A stretch of DNA of 64,000 nt, taken from Nitrospira sp. (GTDB taxonomy: Bacteria; Nitrospirota; Nitrospiria; Nitrospirales; Nitrospiraceae). Both the position numbers and the translations under genes were made by a program. Below, in pieces: positions 24,163 through 42,980 of this stretch; within the stretch, counting starts at the first letter, position 1; the number at the start of each line of letters is the position of its first letter. Under the pieces are notes generated by a model. The model was given only the letters and a program-made list of their open reading frames with translations, was not told the origin of the DNA and searched no databases. The stretch spans positions 124,001 to 188,000 of the forward strand of contig SWDM01000014.1 of assembly GCA_005116835.1 (NCBI GenBank), written 5' to 3'.

Positions 24163-24250
24163 TGCGTCATGCGTGATGCGAAAAGTCGGGCCGGCGAGTT
24201 CCTCGCAGCTCCGACAGTACGTTTCACGTTTCACGTTTCACGTTTTACGT
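24161..24250. repeat. Heptamer inverted-arm repeat inside an operon
   Basis: Left arm GATGCGT, CATGCGT, GATGCG; right arm ACGTTTC repeated three times then ACGTTTT. It begins at the ATPase stop codon and ends one base before the permease ATG, so it sits in an operon transcript and may affect the permease ribosome site. Confidence 0.8.
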
Positions 24251-34055: not shown

Positions 34056-35300
34056 ATGACGCACGATCAAGAAACCGTCCTGCTCCAAGGCCATATCATC
34101 GATTCGTTGATCCTGGCGAAGGTTCTGGACCGGATTCAGATGATGGGCGGAACATTCGACCTGCAGGATGTGCAGATCGGCAAGACCCGTGAGGAGCCTT
34201 CGCGAGCAAGAATCGTCGTGCGGGCTTCGTCTGCGACACTGCTCAGCGAGATTCTCCATGCCATTCAGCCCCACGGAGCATCGGTCGAGAGTGAACGGGA
34301 CTGCCGTCTGGCGGCGGCGCCGGCAGACGGCATCTTACCCGAAGAGTTTTACGCGACCACCCATTTACCCACGCAGGTGCGCGTGCATGATCAGTGGGTT
34401 GAGGTGGAGGGGATCGAGATGGATCTTGGAATTCTCGTGGATCCGGCTCGTCTGACTGCGAAGACTGTTCCCATGGGAGAGGTGAAGCAGGGAGATCAGA
34501 TTGTGACAGGCCGTGAGGGAGTACGGGTCATTCCGCTTCAACGGCCACGTGATCGCGATGTATTCAGTTTTATGGAGTCCCAGGTCTCGTCTGAGCGTCC
34601 CCATGGGCGCGTCATCGGTGACATTGCCAAGCGTCTTGCGCAGTTGCGAACAGGGTTCCGGGAGGGGAAGGTTGGAAGCAAGGTGCTCCTGGCAGGAGGC
34701 CCGGCGATCGTTCACGCCGGAGGGCGCGACGCGCTGACCTGGCTCATCGACGAAGGGTTCATCCATGTCTTGTTTTGCGGGAACGCCTTGCCCGCTCACG
34801 ATATGGAGGTCGATCTCTATGGTACGTCCCTCGGCTATGGGCATGTGGCAGGTCGTGTTGTGCCGCACGGGCACGAACATCATCTGCGAACCATCAATCG
34901 GATCAGGGCCATCGGCAGTATCGAGACAGCGGTCAGGTCTGGTGTCATCAAGACCGGAATTATGGCAGCCTGCGTCAGACAGGGTGTCCAGGTTGTGATG
35001 GCCGGCACGATCCGCGATGACGGCCCCTTGCCCGGGGTGATTACGGATTCGCTGGAGGCTCAGGTTGCCATGCGTGCGGCCATTCCCGGTATCGGATTGG
35101 CCATGCTCGTCGCCTCGACGTTACATGCGGTAGCGACGGGGAATTTGTTGCCTGCTGCCGTTCCATCCGTCTGTGTCGATGTCAATCCAGCCGTCCCGAC
35201 AAAACTCGCGGATCGAGGAAGTTTTCAGGCTGTCGGGTTGGTCATGGACGCCGCGTCGTTTTTACGTGACCTGGCGAGAGAGCTTGGAGCTCGTCTGTGA
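34056..35300 (+). CDS. LOR/SDH-family ornithine cyclodeaminase-type enzyme (TIGR00300)
   Basis: A 414-residue protein of the family that forms the C-terminal part of cyanobacterial AgrE and archaeal ornithine cyclodeaminases. VLLQGHIIDSLILAKVLDRI, HGRVIGDIAKRLAQLRTGFREGKVGSKVLLAGGPAIVHAGG and LCFGNAL..HDMEVDLYGTSLG-like segments are typical, as is a Rossmann-like C-terminus. The likely reaction is ornithine to proline plus ammonia with bound NAD. Next comes the arginine dihydrolase gene, so the two genes give the AgrE activities as separate proteins. A G-rich ribosome site is weak. Confidence 0.85.
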   Translation: MTHDQETVLLQGHIIDSLILAKVLDRIQMMGGTFDLQDVQIGKTREEPSRARIVVRASSATLLSEILHAIQPHGASVESERDCRLAAAPADGILPEEFYATTHLPTQVRVHDQWVEVEGIEMDLGILVDPARLTAKTVPMGEVKQGDQIVTGREGVRVIPLQRPRDRDVFSFMESQVSSERPHGRVIGDIAKRLAQLRTGFREGKVGSKVLLAGGPAIVHAGGRDALTWLIDEGFIHVLFCGNALPAHDMEVDLYGTSLGYGHVAGRVVPHGHEHHLRTINRIRAIGSIETAVRSGVIKTGIMAACVRQGVQVVMAGTIRDDGPLPGVITDSLEAQVAMRAAIPGIGLAMLVASTLHAVATGNLLPAAVPSVCVDVNPAVPTKLADRGSFQAVGLVMDAASFLRDLARELGARL

Positions 35301-35390
35301 GACGTAAAACGTTAATCGTTAATCGTGAAGGGCTTTTGAGGAGCGAGATCGATAGTCCTACGTTTCACGTTTCACGTTTTACGTTTTACG
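35301..35390. repeat. Heptamer inverted-arm repeat inside the arginine operon
   Basis: Left arm GACGTAAAACG with ATCGTTA and ATCGTGA units; right arm ACGTTTC twice then ACGTTTT twice. Starts at the stop codon of the cyclodeaminase-like gene, 20 bases before the next ATG. Confidence 0.8.
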
Positions 35391-35409
35391 GGTTGTCGGA
35401 GAGGAAATC

Positions 35410-36210
35410 ATGAGTCGCCTACTGGTCTGCCCGCCGGACTATTTCGGTATCGAATATGAGATTAATCCCTGGATGCGCCGTTCAAACGCGGTCGATTCAG
35501 GCCAGGCCATCCGCCAATGGCACCACCTCATGCAGGTGCTTGAGCAGGATGTCGGTGCGGTCCTGGAACGGATGAAGCCGGTGCCTGGACTACCAGACCT
35601 GGTGTTTACAGCGAATGCCGGCGTTGTGGTTGGCGGCACAGCCGTGCCGAGCCATTTTCGCTATCCTGAACGGCAGAAGGAAGAGGCGTACTTTGAGGAT
35701 TGGTTTCGTGGGCAGGGTTACAAAGTCGTCACGCTGGAGCCGGGCCGTTTCTTCGAGGGGGCAGGGGACCTATTGGGATTTCCCGACACCTGGTTCGGCG
35801 GCTATCGGCAGCGATCGGATATTCGTGTGTTCCCCACGATCAGCCAGTGGTTTCATCGAGAGATCATCCCGCTCGAACTGGTCGACAACCGGTTCTACCA
35901 CCTCGACACTTGCTTATGTCCCTTGAGTGGTGGAGAACTCCTCTATTTTCCTTCTGCGTTCGATCATTACGGACAAGAGGTTATTGCGCAACGGTTCGCG
36001 CTTTCCAGCCGTCTCGTGGTGCTGGAAGCTGAGGCGCTCAGATTTGCCTGCAATGCCGTCTGTGTCGGGAAACACGTCGTGCTACCCGCCGGTTGTCCAG
36101 AAACAGAATCCCTCTTGACCTCGCGCGGTTATCTCCCCCACCCGGTTGAGCTCGATGAATTTATGAAGTCGGGCGGCTCGGCGAAATGTCTGACGCTAGC
36201 ATTGGATTGA
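35410..36210 (+). CDS. Arginine dihydrolase (ArgZ-like, amidinotransferase fold)
   Basis: A 266-residue pentein-fold enzyme, ribosome site GAGAGGAAATC. Starts LLVCPPDYFGIEYEINPWM; DLVFTANAGVV near residue 66, EGAGDLLG near 117, FYHLDTCLCPL near 168 and the C-terminal GGSAKCLTL supply the guanidine site and catalytic Cys. INPWM and FTAN are features of ArgZ/AgrE arginine dihydrolases rather than DDAH or arginine deiminase; as I recall, the Asn of FTAN is needed for the dihydrolase reaction, arginine to ornithine, CO2 and two ammonia. Dimethylarginine hydrolase is the alternative but less likely given the adjacent cyclodeaminase gene. Confidence 0.82.
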   Translation: MSRLLVCPPDYFGIEYEINPWMRRSNAVDSGQAIRQWHHLMQVLEQDVGAVLERMKPVPGLPDLVFTANAGVVVGGTAVPSHFRYPERQKEEAYFEDWFRGQGYKVVTLEPGRFFEGAGDLLGFPDTWFGGYRQRSDIRVFPTISQWFHREIIPLELVDNRFYHLDTCLCPLSGGELLYFPSAFDHYGQEVIAQRFALSSRLVVLEAEALRFACNAVCVGKHVVLPAGCPETESLLTSRGYLPHPVELDEFMKSGGSAKCLTLALD

Positions 36211-36834: not shown

Positions 36835-36945
36835 TGGTTGCTCTGGTTTGTTTGGTTTTCCTCGTTCATTTGGTTGAACCGGACCAGCCAACTAAACCAG
36901 AAGAACCAAATCCACCAGATAAACTAAACAAACCAGGCCAACCAG
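36835..36945. repeat. Nonamer inverted-arm repeat, copy 5
   Basis: Left arm with GGTTTGTTT, GGTTTTCCT, CGTTCATTT, GGTTGAACC; right arm CCAAATCCA, CCAGATAAA, then AAACAAACCAGG. It lies in the leader of gpsA, ending 26 bases before the ATG. Confidence 0.85.
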
Positions 36946-36971
36946 TTTTAGCATCCTGTAAGGATCCACGT

Positions 36972-37991
36972 ATGCAGACGATCAGCCGAATAGGAGTCAT
37001 TGGGGCCGGCGCTTGGGGCACGGCATTGGCGAAGCATCTGGCGGAAAAAGGTGTCGAAACTCGACTGTGGGCCTACGAGCGAGAGGTCGTGGATGCGATC
37101 AAGGGGAAACACGAGAATCCGGTCTTTCTGCCCGGCGTCATGCTTCCCCCATCGCTCCTTGCCACCGGATCATTGTCGGAGCTCACCGAGCAGTGCGAGG
37201 GCCTGATTTTCGCAGTCCCATCCCACGTTGCGCGTCCCGTACTGCGTGAGTTAGTCCGCTCCCTGTCCGCCCCGATCCCCTTTATCAGCGCGACAAAGGG
37301 GGTTGAGGAAGATACATTGAATTTGATGACTCAGGTGATGACCGACGTCCTCCCTCCCGCCATGCACCGGGACATCATGGTGTTGTCCGGTCCGAGCTTC
37401 GCGACGGAAGTCAGCGCGGGGAATCCGGCGGTGCTCTGTTTGGCCGGGAGCAACGAAGAGCTGGTCAAAGTATTCCAGGCTGCGTTGATGACGCCGGCCT
37501 TTCGGGTATACGCGGACAACGATGTGTTGGGCGTCCAACTCGGCGGCGCGCTCAAGAATGTGATGGCCCTCGCAGCCGGCGTGGTGGATGGATTGGATCT
37601 CGGCCATAATGTGCGGGCGGCGTTGATTACTCGAGGATTGGCTGAGATGGTGCGGTTGGGTGTCGCGATGGGGGCTGACTCACGGACGTTCTATGGACTG
37701 TCAGGAGTAGGCGACTTGGTGTTGACCTGCACCGGAGCCTTGAGCCGGAATCACACAGTCGGTGTGAAGCTAGGCAAGGGCGAGCGGCTGGAGACGATCC
37801 TCGGAAATATGCAGGCCGTGGCCGAAGGGGTACGGACGGCGAAGGCGGCGTTTGGACTCGCGCGCCGTCATCATGTCGACATGCCGATCGTGCAAGAGGT
37901 CAATGCGGTATTATTCGAGGGGAAGTCTTGTCGAAAGGCGGTGACAGACCTGATGGAACGCGATGCCAAACCGGAGAAAGGACAGCCGTGA
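36972..37991 (+). CDS. gpsA: Glycerol-3-phosphate dehydrogenase [NAD(P)+]
   Basis: A 339-residue cytosolic enzyme making sn-glycerol 3-phosphate for phospholipids. ATG at 36972 with AAGGA upstream; the longer frame passes through repeat DNA. GVIGAGAWGTALA (residue 7 on) is the nucleotide site, SATKGVEEDT and LSGPSFATEV follow, and GGALKNVMALAAGVVDGLDLGHNVRAALITRGL contains the catalytic Lys. The stop overlaps the larB start (GTGA), so translation is coupled to larB. Length is normal. Confidence 0.97.
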   Translation: MQTISRIGVIGAGAWGTALAKHLAEKGVETRLWAYEREVVDAIKGKHENPVFLPGVMLPPSLLATGSLSELTEQCEGLIFAVPSHVARPVLRELVRSLSAPIPFISATKGVEEDTLNLMTQVMTDVLPPAMHRDIMVLSGPSFATEVSAGNPAVLCLAGSNEELVKVFQAALMTPAFRVYADNDVLGVQLGGALKNVMALAAGVVDGLDLGHNVRAALITRGLAEMVRLGVAMGADSRTFYGLSGVGDLVLTCTGALSRNHTVGVKLGKGERLETILGNMQAVAEGVRTAKAAFGLARRHHVDMPIVQEVNAVLFEGKSCRKAVTDLMERDAKPEKGQP

Positions 37992-38809
37992 ACCCTGAAG
38001 CATTGAAACGACTCCTGACCGAAGTGCGAGCAGGTACCTTGCCTGTGGAGACGGCGATCGGGCAGCTTCGGACACTCCCCTATGAAGATATTGGATTTGC
38101 CTCGGTGGACCATCACCGGTCATTACGGCAGGGGTTTCCCGAGGTCATATTCTGTGAGGGCAAGACGACGCCTCAGATCCGAGCTATTGCAACGGCGTTG
38201 CTGAAACATAATCGCCCGTTGCTCGCCACGCGCGCGACTCGCCAGGTTGCAATGGCCATTAAACGACTCGATCGTCGAGCGGTCTATCATGACGAGGCGC
38301 GCATTGTCGCGATCCGTGACCCCAAGCAGAAGCTGCAGGGGCATGTCTTGGTGATCACGGCAGGCACGTCGGATATTCCTGTCGCGGAAGAAGCGAAGGT
38401 GACGGCGGAGGTAATGGGAAGCCGGGTTGAGACGCTCTATGACGTGGGCGTAGCCGGCATTCATCGGTTGCTGGAACGTCAAGACCGGCTGTTGCATGCA
38501 CGGGTGGTGGTGGTGGTGGCGGGGATGGATGGCGCTTTGCCGAGTGTGGTCGGTGGATTGGCTCCCTGTCCAGTTGTTGCCGTGCCGACGAGCCGAGGCT
38601 ATGGCGCGAGTTTCGGTGGGCTCGCGGCGTTGTTGACGATGCTGAATTCCTGCGCGGCGGGGGTTGGGGTGATGAACATCGACAATGGGTTCGGGGCCGG
38701 CTGTCTTGCGCACCGGATCAACGTCCTGGGAGAGCAAACAGCCGTCAGCCTTCAGCAATCAGTAAAGCCGAAGAACAATAAGAAAGTGAAGCTGAGAGCT
38801 GAGAGCTGA
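37988..38809 (+). CDS. larB: Nickel-pincer cofactor biosynthesis protein LarB
   Basis: A 273-residue protein with GTG start in the gpsA stop and AAAGGA upstream. LarB carboxylates and hydrolyses nicotinic acid adenine dinucleotide to P2CMN, the first step to the nickel-pincer nucleotide. The C-terminal half (VITAGTSDIPVAEEAKVTAEVMGSRVETLYDVGVAGIHRLL .. VVAVPTSRGYGASFGGLAALLTMLNSCAAGVGVMNIDNGFGAG) is the PurE-like AIR-carboxylase domain with the conserved Cys in NSCAAG. The last 30 residues are Lys/Gln-rich and come from repeat-like DNA (GAGAGCTGAGAGCTGAG). Confidence 0.92.
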   Translation: MNPEALKRLLTEVRAGTLPVETAIGQLRTLPYEDIGFASVDHHRSLRQGFPEVIFCEGKTTPQIRAIATALLKHNRPLLATRATRQVAMAIKRLDRRAVYHDEARIVAIRDPKQKLQGHVLVITAGTSDIPVAEEAKVTAEVMGSRVETLYDVGVAGIHRLLERQDRLLHARVVVVVAGMDGALPSVVGGLAPCPVVAVPTSRGYGASFGGLAALLTMLNSCAAGVGVMNIDNGFGAGCLAHRINVLGEQTAVSLQQSVKPKNNKKVKLRAES

Positions 38810-39389: not shown

Positions 39390-39682
39390 CAGTCTATTGT
39401 TGCGAAATGCTCAGATGAGGACGAGCTCAGTGGGGATAACATAGCGTCGGTGGGCTGTCAATGTATTCTCGCGCGATGGGCGTGAAAAGCGCGATAGGCG
39501 CGGCTCGATGTTCAAAGTTCTGTGTTCGAAGTTCCGAAAACTTCGAACCTCGAACCGTCGCCAGTCTCACCCGTCCCGCTTTTCTCGCCCGTCTCGCGAG
39601 TCTCGCCTCGACGAATCGATTGCCGTTCACGCGCTGCTTGGGTAAGATGGCGCGGGTTGAATTGAGGGGAGAAAGGATACAC

Positions 39683-40888
39683 GTGGGCGCGCATCTTCAT
39701 TTCGATTGTTATTCCGGTATCAGCGGCGACATGATCCTCGGCGCGCTTGTGGATGTGGGCGCCCCATTTCCCGATTTGGTGAGCGGACTGAAGCGACTCA
39801 AGCTTTCGGGGTTTACGCTACGGAAGCGACGGGTGCAACGAGGGGCGATCCACGCCACAAAGGTGGACGTCGTGATCACGTCGGGATTGCGCAAGCCGCT
39901 CTCGCTTCATCGGATCCACGCTATCCTCTCCGCGAGTCGAATTCCCGATAAAATCAAACAGCAAAGCCGGTCGGTATTCGATCGATTGGCCGATGCGGAG
40001 GGCCATGCCCATCGCGTGGCCAAGGATCATGTCCATTTTCATGAAGTGGGGGTGTTGGATTCGTTTGTCGATATTGTCGGCGGGCTGATTTGCTGCGATC
40101 TGCTGGGTGTGACGCGTGTCACGGCTTCTCCCGTCAATGTCGGAGCTGGGACGCTGCAATCGGCGCACGGGATCCTTCCCGCGCCTGGTCCGGCGGTCGC
40201 CATTTTGGCGAAAGGAGCCCCGATTTATAGCGCCGGCCCTTCGCGCGAACTCACCACGCCGACCGGCATGGCCCTGTTGCGTACGCTGACATCGGAGTTC
40301 GGTCCTATGCCGGTGATGACGCCGACGGCCATCGGCTATGGAGCGGGCGATGCCGATCCTGTCGGCTGGCCAAATGCCTTGCGTGTGTTCCTCGCGCGAT
40401 CGTCGTCGCGAGGAGTCAGGGAGCAGGATACGGTGCTGCAAGTTGAAACTAATCTCGACGATGTGAACCCGCAAACGTATGAATATGTGATGGAGCAGTT
40501 ATTTGCCTGTGGGGCGCTCGATGTGACACTGGCGCCGGTCATTATGAAACGTGGACGGCCCGGCATCATTCTGACCTGTCTCGCGGCTCCGACAGCGGCG
40601 GATCGGATTCTTGACGTCTTGTTTAAGGAGACGACATCGCTGGGAGTTCGGATTCGAGAAGTCGAGCGGCAGATCCTCCCTCGGCGTTTTGTCTCAGTGA
40701 AGGTGCGCGGAGGAGTCGTTCGAATGAAGATTGCCGATGTGAGCGAAACCGCGGTCAAGGCGGCTCCGGAATATCTCGATTGTAAGCGGATCGCCGAACG
40801 AACGGGACGATCCGTAAAAGAAGTCCTCGAGGCCGCGTCCCTTGCCTATGCCAAACAGCGGGTCGTTAGGCCAACGGGCCGGGGATGA
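39683..40888 (+). CDS. larC: Nickel insertion protein LarC
   Basis: A 401-residue protein; GTG at 39683 with GAGAAAGGA upstream. In-frame codons further upstream lie in short repeats (GTTCGAAGTTC type). LHFDCYSGISGDMILGALVD is the LarC start, KDHVHFHEVGVLDSFVDIVGG carries the histidine cluster, and the C-terminus (ETNLDDVNPQTYEYVMEQLFACGALDV .. GRPGIILTCLA) is the CTP-binding/nickel-loading part. LarC inserts Ni into the pincer nucleotide. No frameshift separates LarC1 and LarC2 here. LarE and LarA are not in the window. Confidence 0.93.
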   Translation: MGAHLHFDCYSGISGDMILGALVDVGAPFPDLVSGLKRLKLSGFTLRKRRVQRGAIHATKVDVVITSGLRKPLSLHRIHAILSASRIPDKIKQQSRSVFDRLADAEGHAHRVAKDHVHFHEVGVLDSFVDIVGGLICCDLLGVTRVTASPVNVGAGTLQSAHGILPAPGPAVAILAKGAPIYSAGPSRELTTPTGMALLRTLTSEFGPMPVMTPTAIGYGAGDADPVGWPNALRVFLARSSSRGVREQDTVLQVETNLDDVNPQTYEYVMEQLFACGALDVTLAPVIMKRGRPGIILTCLAAPTAADRILDVLFKETTSLGVRIREVERQILPRRFVSVKVRGGVVRMKIADVSETAVKAAPEYLDCKRIAERTGRSVKEVLEAASLAYAKQRVVRPTGRG

Positions 40889-41886
40889 CGGTCTTACTCT
40901 ATACACTGCTGTTTCTCGTATCCGTCGCAGTGACGTTGGGCGCCTGTACCCTCTTCACAAACGCCATCGAGTGGTTGGGTAAGCGATTCAACTTGTCTGA
41001 AGGCGCAGTCGGCGGAGTGTTGGCAGCGATCGGCACGACACTTCCTGAAACCTCCATCCCCGTCATTGCCATTTTCTTTGGGGCCAGCCGGGCCGAAGCG
41101 GAGGTGGGGTTAGGCGCGATTCTCGGCGCGCCCTTCATGCTGACGACTCTGGTGATCCCCATCTTGGCCATCCTGCTGATGGTCTATGCCGGCTTGGGGA
41201 AGAGAACCGCTGCCTTCCGATTGAATTATCCCGATGTAAGAGGCGATCTCTCCTTTTTTGTGGTGGCCTATGGCGTCGCATTGGCTTGTGCGTTTATTCC
41301 ATCTCAAACGATGCACATTGCCGCCGCCGTCGGGTTGATCGGCCTCTATCTCTATTATGTCAAGTTGAAGTTTAGTCAGTCTGATGAAGAAGCAAGCGAA
41401 GGCGCACTTGAGCCGCTGCTTTTTGCCAGAAAGGCAGCCATCCCGTCATTCGGGCTGATCGGTCTTCAAGCAGGGCTTGGCTTGGCAGGTCTCGCGCTCG
41501 GTGCGCATCTTTTCGTGCTGGCTGCAGAAACGATCGCGGGAGCTCTGTCGATATCTCCATTAATTCTGGCCCTCCTCGTCGCGCCTCTGGCGACCGAATT
41601 GCCAGAGATGTCGAATAGCTTTCTCTGGCTCTATCGAAAGAAGGATCGGTTGGCAGTAGGGAATGTTACCGGCGCGATCGTCTTTCAGGGTACAATTCCA
41701 GTCTCGATCGGACTCTTGGGCACGGACTGGACGCTGGCGCCGACGGCGTTGATCACCATGGTGCTCGCTGTGGTGGCAGGCTCATTCCTATTGGCGCAGG
41801 CTGCGTGGGGTCACTGGCGACCCTGGTTGCTGAGCGGGAGCGCTCTCCTTTATATAGGATATGTGGTCTACCTATATGGTTGGTAA
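40885..41886 (+). CDS. CaCA-family cation/Ca2+ exchanger-like membrane protein
   Basis: A 333-residue protein with about ten membrane segments in two halves. Each half has an alpha-repeat: GAVGGVLAAIGTTLPETSIPVIAIFFGA (residues about 40-67) and ILALLVAPLATELPEMSNSFLWLYR (about 228-252), with the acidic residues expected for NCX/CaCA exchangers. The start overlaps the larC stop (ATGA), so it is cotranslated with larC. A role in cation supply or efflux is inferred; nickel is possible but unproven. Confidence 0.87.
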   Translation: MTVLLYTLLFLVSVAVTLGACTLFTNAIEWLGKRFNLSEGAVGGVLAAIGTTLPETSIPVIAIFFGASRAEAEVGLGAILGAPFMLTTLVIPILAILLMVYAGLGKRTAAFRLNYPDVRGDLSFFVVAYGVALACAFIPSQTMHIAAAVGLIGLYLYYVKLKFSQSDEEASEGALEPLLFARKAAIPSFGLIGLQAGLGLAGLALGAHLFVLAAETIAGALSISPLILALLVAPLATELPEMSNSFLWLYRKKDRLAVGNVTGAIVFQGTIPVSIGLLGTDWTLAPTALITMVLAVVAGSFLLAQAAWGHWRPWLLSGSALLYIGYVVYLYGW

Positions 41887-41897
41887 CCACTGAAGAT

Positions 41898-41995
41898 GGT
41901 TTATTTGGTTTGTCTGGTTTGTTTTGTTTGTTTGGTTCAATGGGGAGTAGGTTCATGACGACACAACAAAACAAACCAAAGAAACCAAACAAACC
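41898..41995. repeat. Nonamer inverted-arm repeat, copy 6, extending into pdxA
   Basis: Left arm GGTTTATTT, GGTTTGTCT, GGTTTGTTT, TGTTTGTTT, GGTTCAATG. Right arm, after the pdxA ATG, has CAAAACAAACC and AAACCAAACAAACC. The right arm encodes the pdxA N-terminal residues TTQQNKPKKPNKP. Confidence 0.85.
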
Positions 41996-42980
41996 CCTTC
42001 TCGGAATCACCATGGGAGATCCGGCTGGGATCGGTCCCGAGGTGATTGCCAAGGCTTTGGCTGGAGCGAAAGTGCGGCGGGTCTGCCGTCCTCTGGTCGT
42101 CGGCTCGTTTCCTGTGATGCAGCAGGTGGTGAAGCGCCTGAAGCTCAAGATGAACGTGGTTCTAGTGGAGGGTCACGATCCTAAGCCGCCGCGTCTGAAT
42201 GACCTGGCTGTGTTGGATCCGCTCGATCATCCCCTTGGGCGATTTCCTCGTGGGGTCGCCTCGCCAGCAGCTGGAGCGGCTTCAGTGTCGTTCATTAAGA
42301 AGGCTGTCGAATTGGCCCAGCTTGGCTGCATCGACGGCATCGTGACTGCGCCGATCAATAAAGAAGCGATCAACATGGCCGGCTGTCATTTCCCCGGCCA
42401 TACGGAATTGTTGGCGGACCTGACCAAGACCGAAGAGTCAGGCATGATGATCATCGGTGGGCCGCTTCGCATCATGTTTGTGACGACTCATGTCGCGATC
42501 AAGGACTTGCCTGCGCTTCTGACCCAGGCCAAGATCGAAAAGGCCATTAGACTCGCCCATCTGGCATTGAGGGATCTGTTCGGCATCAAGAAACCGAGGG
42601 TTGGTGTCGCCGCATTGAACCCCCATGCGGGGGAACATGGGCTGTTTGGGGACGAAGAGGCGCGTGTCATTCTCCCGGCGGCCCGTGCGGCGCAGGCGCA
42701 GGGGATTCGTGCCAGCGACCCCTTACCGGCTGATACGCTGTTCGGCAAGGCGGCGCGGGGCGATTATGACGCGGTGGTGGCCCTGTACCACGATCAGGGG
42801 TTGATTCCCTTAAAGCTTGTCGCGTTTGGTACCTGTGTGAATCTGACGGTGGGTCTGCCGATCATTCGCACCTCGGTCGATCACGGAACGGCATTCGATA
42901 TTGTGGGAAAAGGTATCGCAGACCCAGGCAGCTTAATCGAGGCGATCATGCTGGCTGCCACGTTAACTAAAAGACGTTGA
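41955..42980 (+). CDS. pdxA: 4-hydroxythreonine-4-phosphate dehydrogenase
   Basis: A 341-residue enzyme of the DXP-dependent pyridoxal-phosphate pathway, oxidising 4-phosphohydroxy-L-threonine with NAD. GITMGDPAGIGPEVIAKAL (residue 17 on), the metal-site histidines in ..GCHFPGHTELLADLTK and VALYHDQGLIPLKL, plus NPHAGEHGLFGDEE, are all conserved. The first 15 residues are encoded by the right arm of a nonamer repeat. ATG at 41955 is the best available start but has no strong ribosome site. Confidence 0.95.
   Translation: MTTQQNKPKKPNKPLLGITMGDPAGIGPEVIAKALAGAKVRRVCRPLVVGSFPVMQQVVKRLKLKMNVVLVEGHDPKPPRLNDLAVLDPLDHPLGRFPRGVASPAAGAASVSFIKKAVELAQLGCIDGIVTAPINKEAINMAGCHFPGHTELLADLTKTEESGMMIIGGPLRIMFVTTHVAIKDLPALLTQAKIEKAIRLAHLALRDLFGIKKPRVGVAALNPHAGEHGLFGDEEARVILPAARAAQAQGIRASDPLPADTLFGKAARGDYDAVVALYHDQGLIPLKLVAFGTCVNLTVGLPIIRTSVDHGTAFDIVGKGIADPGSLIEAIMLAATLTKRR

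Follow-up and report, generated by a model that had tools for sequence, protein, structure and literature searches.

A Nitrospira ornithine cyclodeaminase gene paired with an arginine-dihydrolase-like gene, probably a two-gene form of the AgrE pathway near nickel-pincer nucleotide genes

In a genome of Nitrospira sp. (GCA_005116835.1), a gene for an ornithine cyclodeaminase of the LOR/SDH type (OCD) is followed by a gene for an arginine-dihydrolase-like enzyme (ADH). There are good grounds to regard the two as consecutive enzymes of one catabolic route, the AgrE pathway encoded by a linked gene pair whose order is reversed, with an OCD that probably uses the nickel-pincer nucleotide (NPN). The window, to which all coordinates refer unless another locus is named, is the 64,000 nt stretch at positions 124,001-188,000 (forward strand) of contig SWDM01000014.1. 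OCD (414 aa) lies at 34056-35300 and ADH (266 aa) at 35410-36210, both on the + strand. A sequence-only reading of this DNA had recognized a LOR/SDH cyclodeaminase-like gene followed by an arginine dihydrolase, and these remain the best available assignments. What is new is the arrangement of a known pathway, for which gene identity, domains, catalytic residues, pairing, neighbourhood and co-occurrence were observed here.

The activities, cofactor and flux direction that we infer for the pair are as follows. By hydrolysis, ADH would convert arginine into ornithine with release of CO2 and two ammonia. OCD would cyclise ornithine to proline with the release of a third ammonia, and PutA, encoded elsewhere in the genome, would oxidise proline to glutamate. 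OCD would probably draw on NPN, for which larB and larC lie nearby and larE farther off in the genome; the alternative is NAD(H). Conversion of arginine to proline and three ammonia by the pair is probable, and the balance of proline, CO2 and 3 NH3, which the sequence-only reading had also proposed, is the stoichiometry reported for AgrE (PMC8262935). For nitrifiers, a route from arginine to glutamate with release of ammonia would be relevant to their use of organic nitrogen, and the conserved pair offers a way to test what the nickel-pincer cofactor serves.

OCD passes the NCBIfam equivalog cut-off of TIGR00300 (450.9 against 410.8 bits) and contains PF04455 (residues 6-103), PF21571 (105-187) and PF21570 (189-406), the three Pfam domains of the C-terminal part of ArgZ and AgrE. 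Its matches in the PDB are 3c2q (E 3.8e-90), which is the LOR/SDH protein MMP1218 of Methanococcus maripaludis, and 6lrf (E 2.1e-87), which is AgrE. The AlphaFold model (mean pLDDT 78) gives a predicted fold close to AgrE (6lrf, Z 41.7) and MMP1218 (Z 33.0), the next resemblance of the modelled catalytic domain being to the deoxyhypusine synthase fold (Z ~18). LarA is absent among the fold matches listed for the model, which carries no weight as proof. H248, H273, H276, H357, C306 and K383 are conserved across Nitrospira OCD, AgrE, MMP1218 and the NF052526 variant of OCD; assigning them to catalysis or to the cofactor would be guesswork. The NF052526 variant was seen in Acetoanaerobium noterae (L196, 4875-6026), on a 2.6-Mb record labelled as a plasmid that may be a chromosome.

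AgrE (Alr4995 of Anabaena; PDB 6lrf, 6lrg and 6lrh) and ArgZ (Sll1336 of Synechocystis; 6juy) are each one protein with the dihydrolase first, whereas in Nitrospira there are two genes, the cyclodeaminase first, as the sequence-only reading had observed, and larB and larC lie downstream. Both halves of AgrE are homologous to the Nitrospira proteins over their full length, with 39.9% identity for OCD and 45.4% for ADH. The bifunctional AgrE/ArgZ family NF052231 is defined as a single fusion with the dihydrolase first and does not take in two reversed ORFs, and the "split" arrangement should not be read as derived from a fusion. MMP1218 is a stand-alone protein too, to which OCD is 44.2% identical over 326 residues. 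The archaeal controls that carry TIGR00300, M. jannaschii and H. volcanii, have no NF052232 (arginine dihydrolase) match, whereas Nitrospira OCD is coupled to ADH.

The sequence-only reading had called for a survey of Nitrospira genomes for the pair. A scan of contigs, with a query so close that it reached only Nitrospirota (by title), returned 80 further loci, including N. moscoviensis (L141) and N. defluvii (L163). OCD precedes ADH on the same strand in every one of them; the genes overlap by 4 bp in 72 and are separated by 88-184 bp in the other 8. Among 61 genomes of the order Nitrospirales, 39 have both genes, 20 have neither and 2 have ADH alone (Fisher tests on these counts ignore relatedness, and their p-values are not to be taken as probabilities). 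The pair is conserved across the Nitrospirales, beyond chance, and at ~50% identity it also occurs in G149 and G184, which branch deeper within the class. Outside Nitrospirota, the survey covered 14 control genomes and plasmid matches. In one of the ADH-only genomes (G002), ADH is represented only by a short fragment, on a small contig that also carries larB; this contig may end before reaching OCD. In G037 (L203, 9442-10287), the DNA and first codons immediately ahead of ADH match the ones that precede OCD in G046 and G053. This looks like a natural in-place deletion of OCD with retention of ADH; no LarB or LarE above cut-off was found in this genome.

In the window, the spacer between OCD and ADH (35301-35409, + strand) is 109 bp long and contains ACGTTTCACG/ACGTTTTACG repeats. 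Such tandem repeats occur at two sites of the window, 24219-24249 and 35303-35390, and the spacer repeat reappears in altered form in the relatives L093, L099 and L102.

The order of genes in the window is truD, OCD, ADH, a zinc-ribbon gene, gpsA, larB, an uncharacterised gene, larC, a CaCA exchanger gene and pdxA. The glycerol-3-phosphate dehydrogenase gene gpsA (36852-37991) opens a conserved gpsA-larB-larC-pdxA cluster, all of it on the + strand. It is followed by larB (37928-38809; NF033503, 293.7 bits against a cut-off of 175), for biosynthesis of the pincer nucleotide, and by larC (39461-40888; TIGR00299, 187.7 against 90 bits; NF052512, 139.9 against 50; PF01969), for the insertion of nickel, whose real start codon may lie inside the called ORF. 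The cluster closes with pdxA (41805-42980; PF04166, 358.7 bits), separated from larC by the CaCA exchanger in Nitrospiraceae. A larE above cut-off lies away from the pair in the same genome (G000:C3:19426), hence the three cofactor genes of LarA-type nickel-pincer enzymes are present here.

The presence of larB and larC downstream, together with the annotation of TIGR00300 as NPN-dependent, goes beyond the sequence-only reading and is suggestive of a link between the pair and nickel-pincer biosynthesis. Both genes are found downstream in 58 of the 59 loci that have more than 6.5 kb after ADH. Elsewhere in the order, other families carry the pair away from larB/larC, which makes the linkage a feature of Nitrospiraceae. 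Four genomes (G003, G016, G020 and G035) lack the pair in the interval from truD to the zinc-ribbon gene, with the remaining order intact. Linkage by itself was rejected as proof of NPN use, since the gpsA-larB-larC-pdxA cluster survives without the pair. Furthermore, some Nitrospira genomes retain larB, larC and larE without OCD and LarA, and because larB and larC are also kept without OCD, the OCD-lar linkage is suggestive only.

Across 197 Nitrospirota genomes, OCD was found in 62, LarC in 164 and LarA in 18, and LarC accompanies OCD in all 62 OCD-bearing genomes. In two genomes (G037 and G049), the absence of OCD coincides with the absence of LarB and LarE. By subtraction of the lists, 97 of the 197 have LarC with neither OCD nor LarA, outside the Nitrospirales for example G064, G073, G090 and G113; hence at least one more user of the nickel-pincer pathway is likely. 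A deoxyhypusine-synthase-like protein (L077, 638-1720, in G020), with a weak match to the ArgZ C-terminal part and similar weak matches in many Nitrospira genomes, was considered as a missing NPN user and set aside: it matches PF01916, and PF21570 weakly, and nothing further supports it. The genome studied here also has a LarA homologue, a potential NPN user (L087, 5622-8031; G000:C5), which stands beside an ATP-grasp protein among apparent glycosyltransferase/acyltransferase genes. An ATP-grasp match beside LarA was also seen in the LarA-bearing members of the genus G005, G019 and G030.

OCD may need NPN from the nearby larB/larC and the distant larE. In NCBIfam release 20.0, TIGR00300 is named "ornithine cyclodeaminase, nickel-pincer nucleotide-dependent". 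A 2024 paper reported that LarB, LarE and LarC of Synechocystis, the source of ArgZ, make NPN, that most cyanobacteria have no LarA-like protein and that larB, larE and larC occur without larA in about 15% of genomes, and it inferred an unidentified NPN user with a fold unlike LarA as likely (PMC11796402). OCD lacks the LarA domain, its catalytic domain resembling deoxyhypusine synthase. It is about an even bet that the stand-alone OCD of the Nitrospirales is such an NPN user, folded like deoxyhypusine synthase and not like LarA, and that it chiefly explains the retention of larB, larC and larE in most of the genomes that have the pair and no LarA. The gene order in Nitrospira and the natural OCD deletion are a place to test the question of an NPN user unlike LarA (PMC11796402). 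Among the papers searched, none connects NPN to ornithine cyclodeaminase, and Nitrospira and ornithine cyclodeaminase are co-mentioned, once each, only in a paper on red-algal gene transfer.

Alternatively, OCD could perform the same reaction with NAD(H), both steps of the pathway being unchanged, and larB/larC would then be nearby only because gpsA-larB-larC-pdxA is an old cluster serving another NPN enzyme; this is a serious possibility, although held with less than even confidence. Deoxyhypusine synthase is an NAD enzyme, and the predicted fold of the OCD catalytic domain is consistent with this alternative. It is further favoured by the AgrE ternary complex with ornithine and NAD+ (PDB 6lrg), by the intact cluster where the pair is absent, by the separation of the pair from larB/larC in other families and by the 97 genomes with LarC and neither OCD nor LarA. 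However, it has to account for the present name of TIGR00300, for the finding that none of the 62 genomes has OCD without LarC and for the absence of LarB and LarE along with OCD in G037 and G049.

The arginine-to-proline-to-glutamate route with ammonia release would be complete on paper in this genome. A proline dehydrogenase match was found in 49 of the 61 Nitrospirales genomes including this one, mostly in frames of PutA size (~1000 aa), and PutA is present in 36 of the 39 pair-bearing genomes. ProC, found in 56 of the 61, is present here, and a glutamate-to-proline route is therefore likely in place. It is unlikely, but worth weighing, that the main flux of the pair runs through an ornithine-ammonia cycle or supplies proline as an osmolyte or for protein, rather than leading to glutamate. 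For Synechocystis, ArgZ has been proposed to act in an ornithine-ammonia cycle (PMC8262935), and three pair-bearing genomes (G027, G029 and G034) have no PutA match. However, OCD would remove ornithine from a cycle, proline could likely be made from glutamate given ProC, and PutA accompanies the pair in most cases, all of which argue against this reading. The sequence-only reading had also suggested that the route may link nitrogen storage to energy or assimilation. A connection with the energy supply from nitrification has no support here. The storage link is unsupported too, and storage as cyanophycin was rejected, because no cyanophycin synthetase passes the TIGR02068 cut-off in the 61 genomes; the partial matches to TIGR02068 mostly cover the ligase part (positions about 470-848), and a few cover the ATP-grasp part, beside LarA.

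For ADH, the top family is the arginine dihydrolase family NF052232 (273.2 bits), whose curated cut-off of 450 is reached neither by ADH nor by any protein among the 61 relatives. ADH is not filed as a member, and its role as an arginine dihydrolase is hence only inferred. Among solved structures it matches AgrE (6lrf, E 9.6e-71) and ArgZ (6jv0) best, and it is 44.6% identical to the dihydrolase part of ArgZ, close to the value for AgrE, against 37.9% for the dimethylargininase of M. ulcerans. The catalytic Asn, His and Cys of ArgZ and AgrE are kept as N69, H164 and C260. C260 aligns with the Cys altered in the C264A structure of AgrE, and N69 with the ArgZ Asn that is Ser in chain 6juz (an Asn-to-Ser structure). 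Because actinobacterial dimethylargininases also have this Asn, N69 is not decisive for the identity of ADH. The second family is the Mtb-type dimethylargininase NF045659 (244 bits, below the cut-off of 300), of the same guanidino-modifying superfamily and 38-41% identical to ADH. Its proteins differ at 12 positions common to Nitrospira and cyanobacteria, including F115, C168, A213 and L261; among the group-fixed positions, these 12 place Nitrospira ADH with the cyanobacteria and 3 place it with the actinobacterial dimethylargininases. Trees of ADH and dimethylargininases have long branches and weak inner nodes and leave the question unsettled.

Pairing with OCD is a better argument for a dihydrolase than the residues or the trees. 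Dimethylargininase yields citrulline, which is not a substrate for ornithine cyclodeaminase, and the pairing therefore favours arginine dihydrolase. That the second ORF (35410-36210) is a dimethylargininase and the two genes do not form one pathway is very improbable: its sub-threshold dihydrolase score, NF045659 as second-best family, DDAH_eukar as sole Pfam match and the shared N69 speak for it, but the ORF falls short of the NF045659 cut-off, where three genuine actinobacterial members score 387-475 bits, is nearer to ArgZ/AgrE in identity and diagnostic positions and is strictly coupled to an ornithine enzyme, and the identification was rejected. On a plasmid of M. ulcerans (L190, 2908-5024), a gene annotated as a dimethylargininase lies directly 5′ of rocD, encoding ornithine transaminase, a position that would fit an ornithine-forming dihydrolase.
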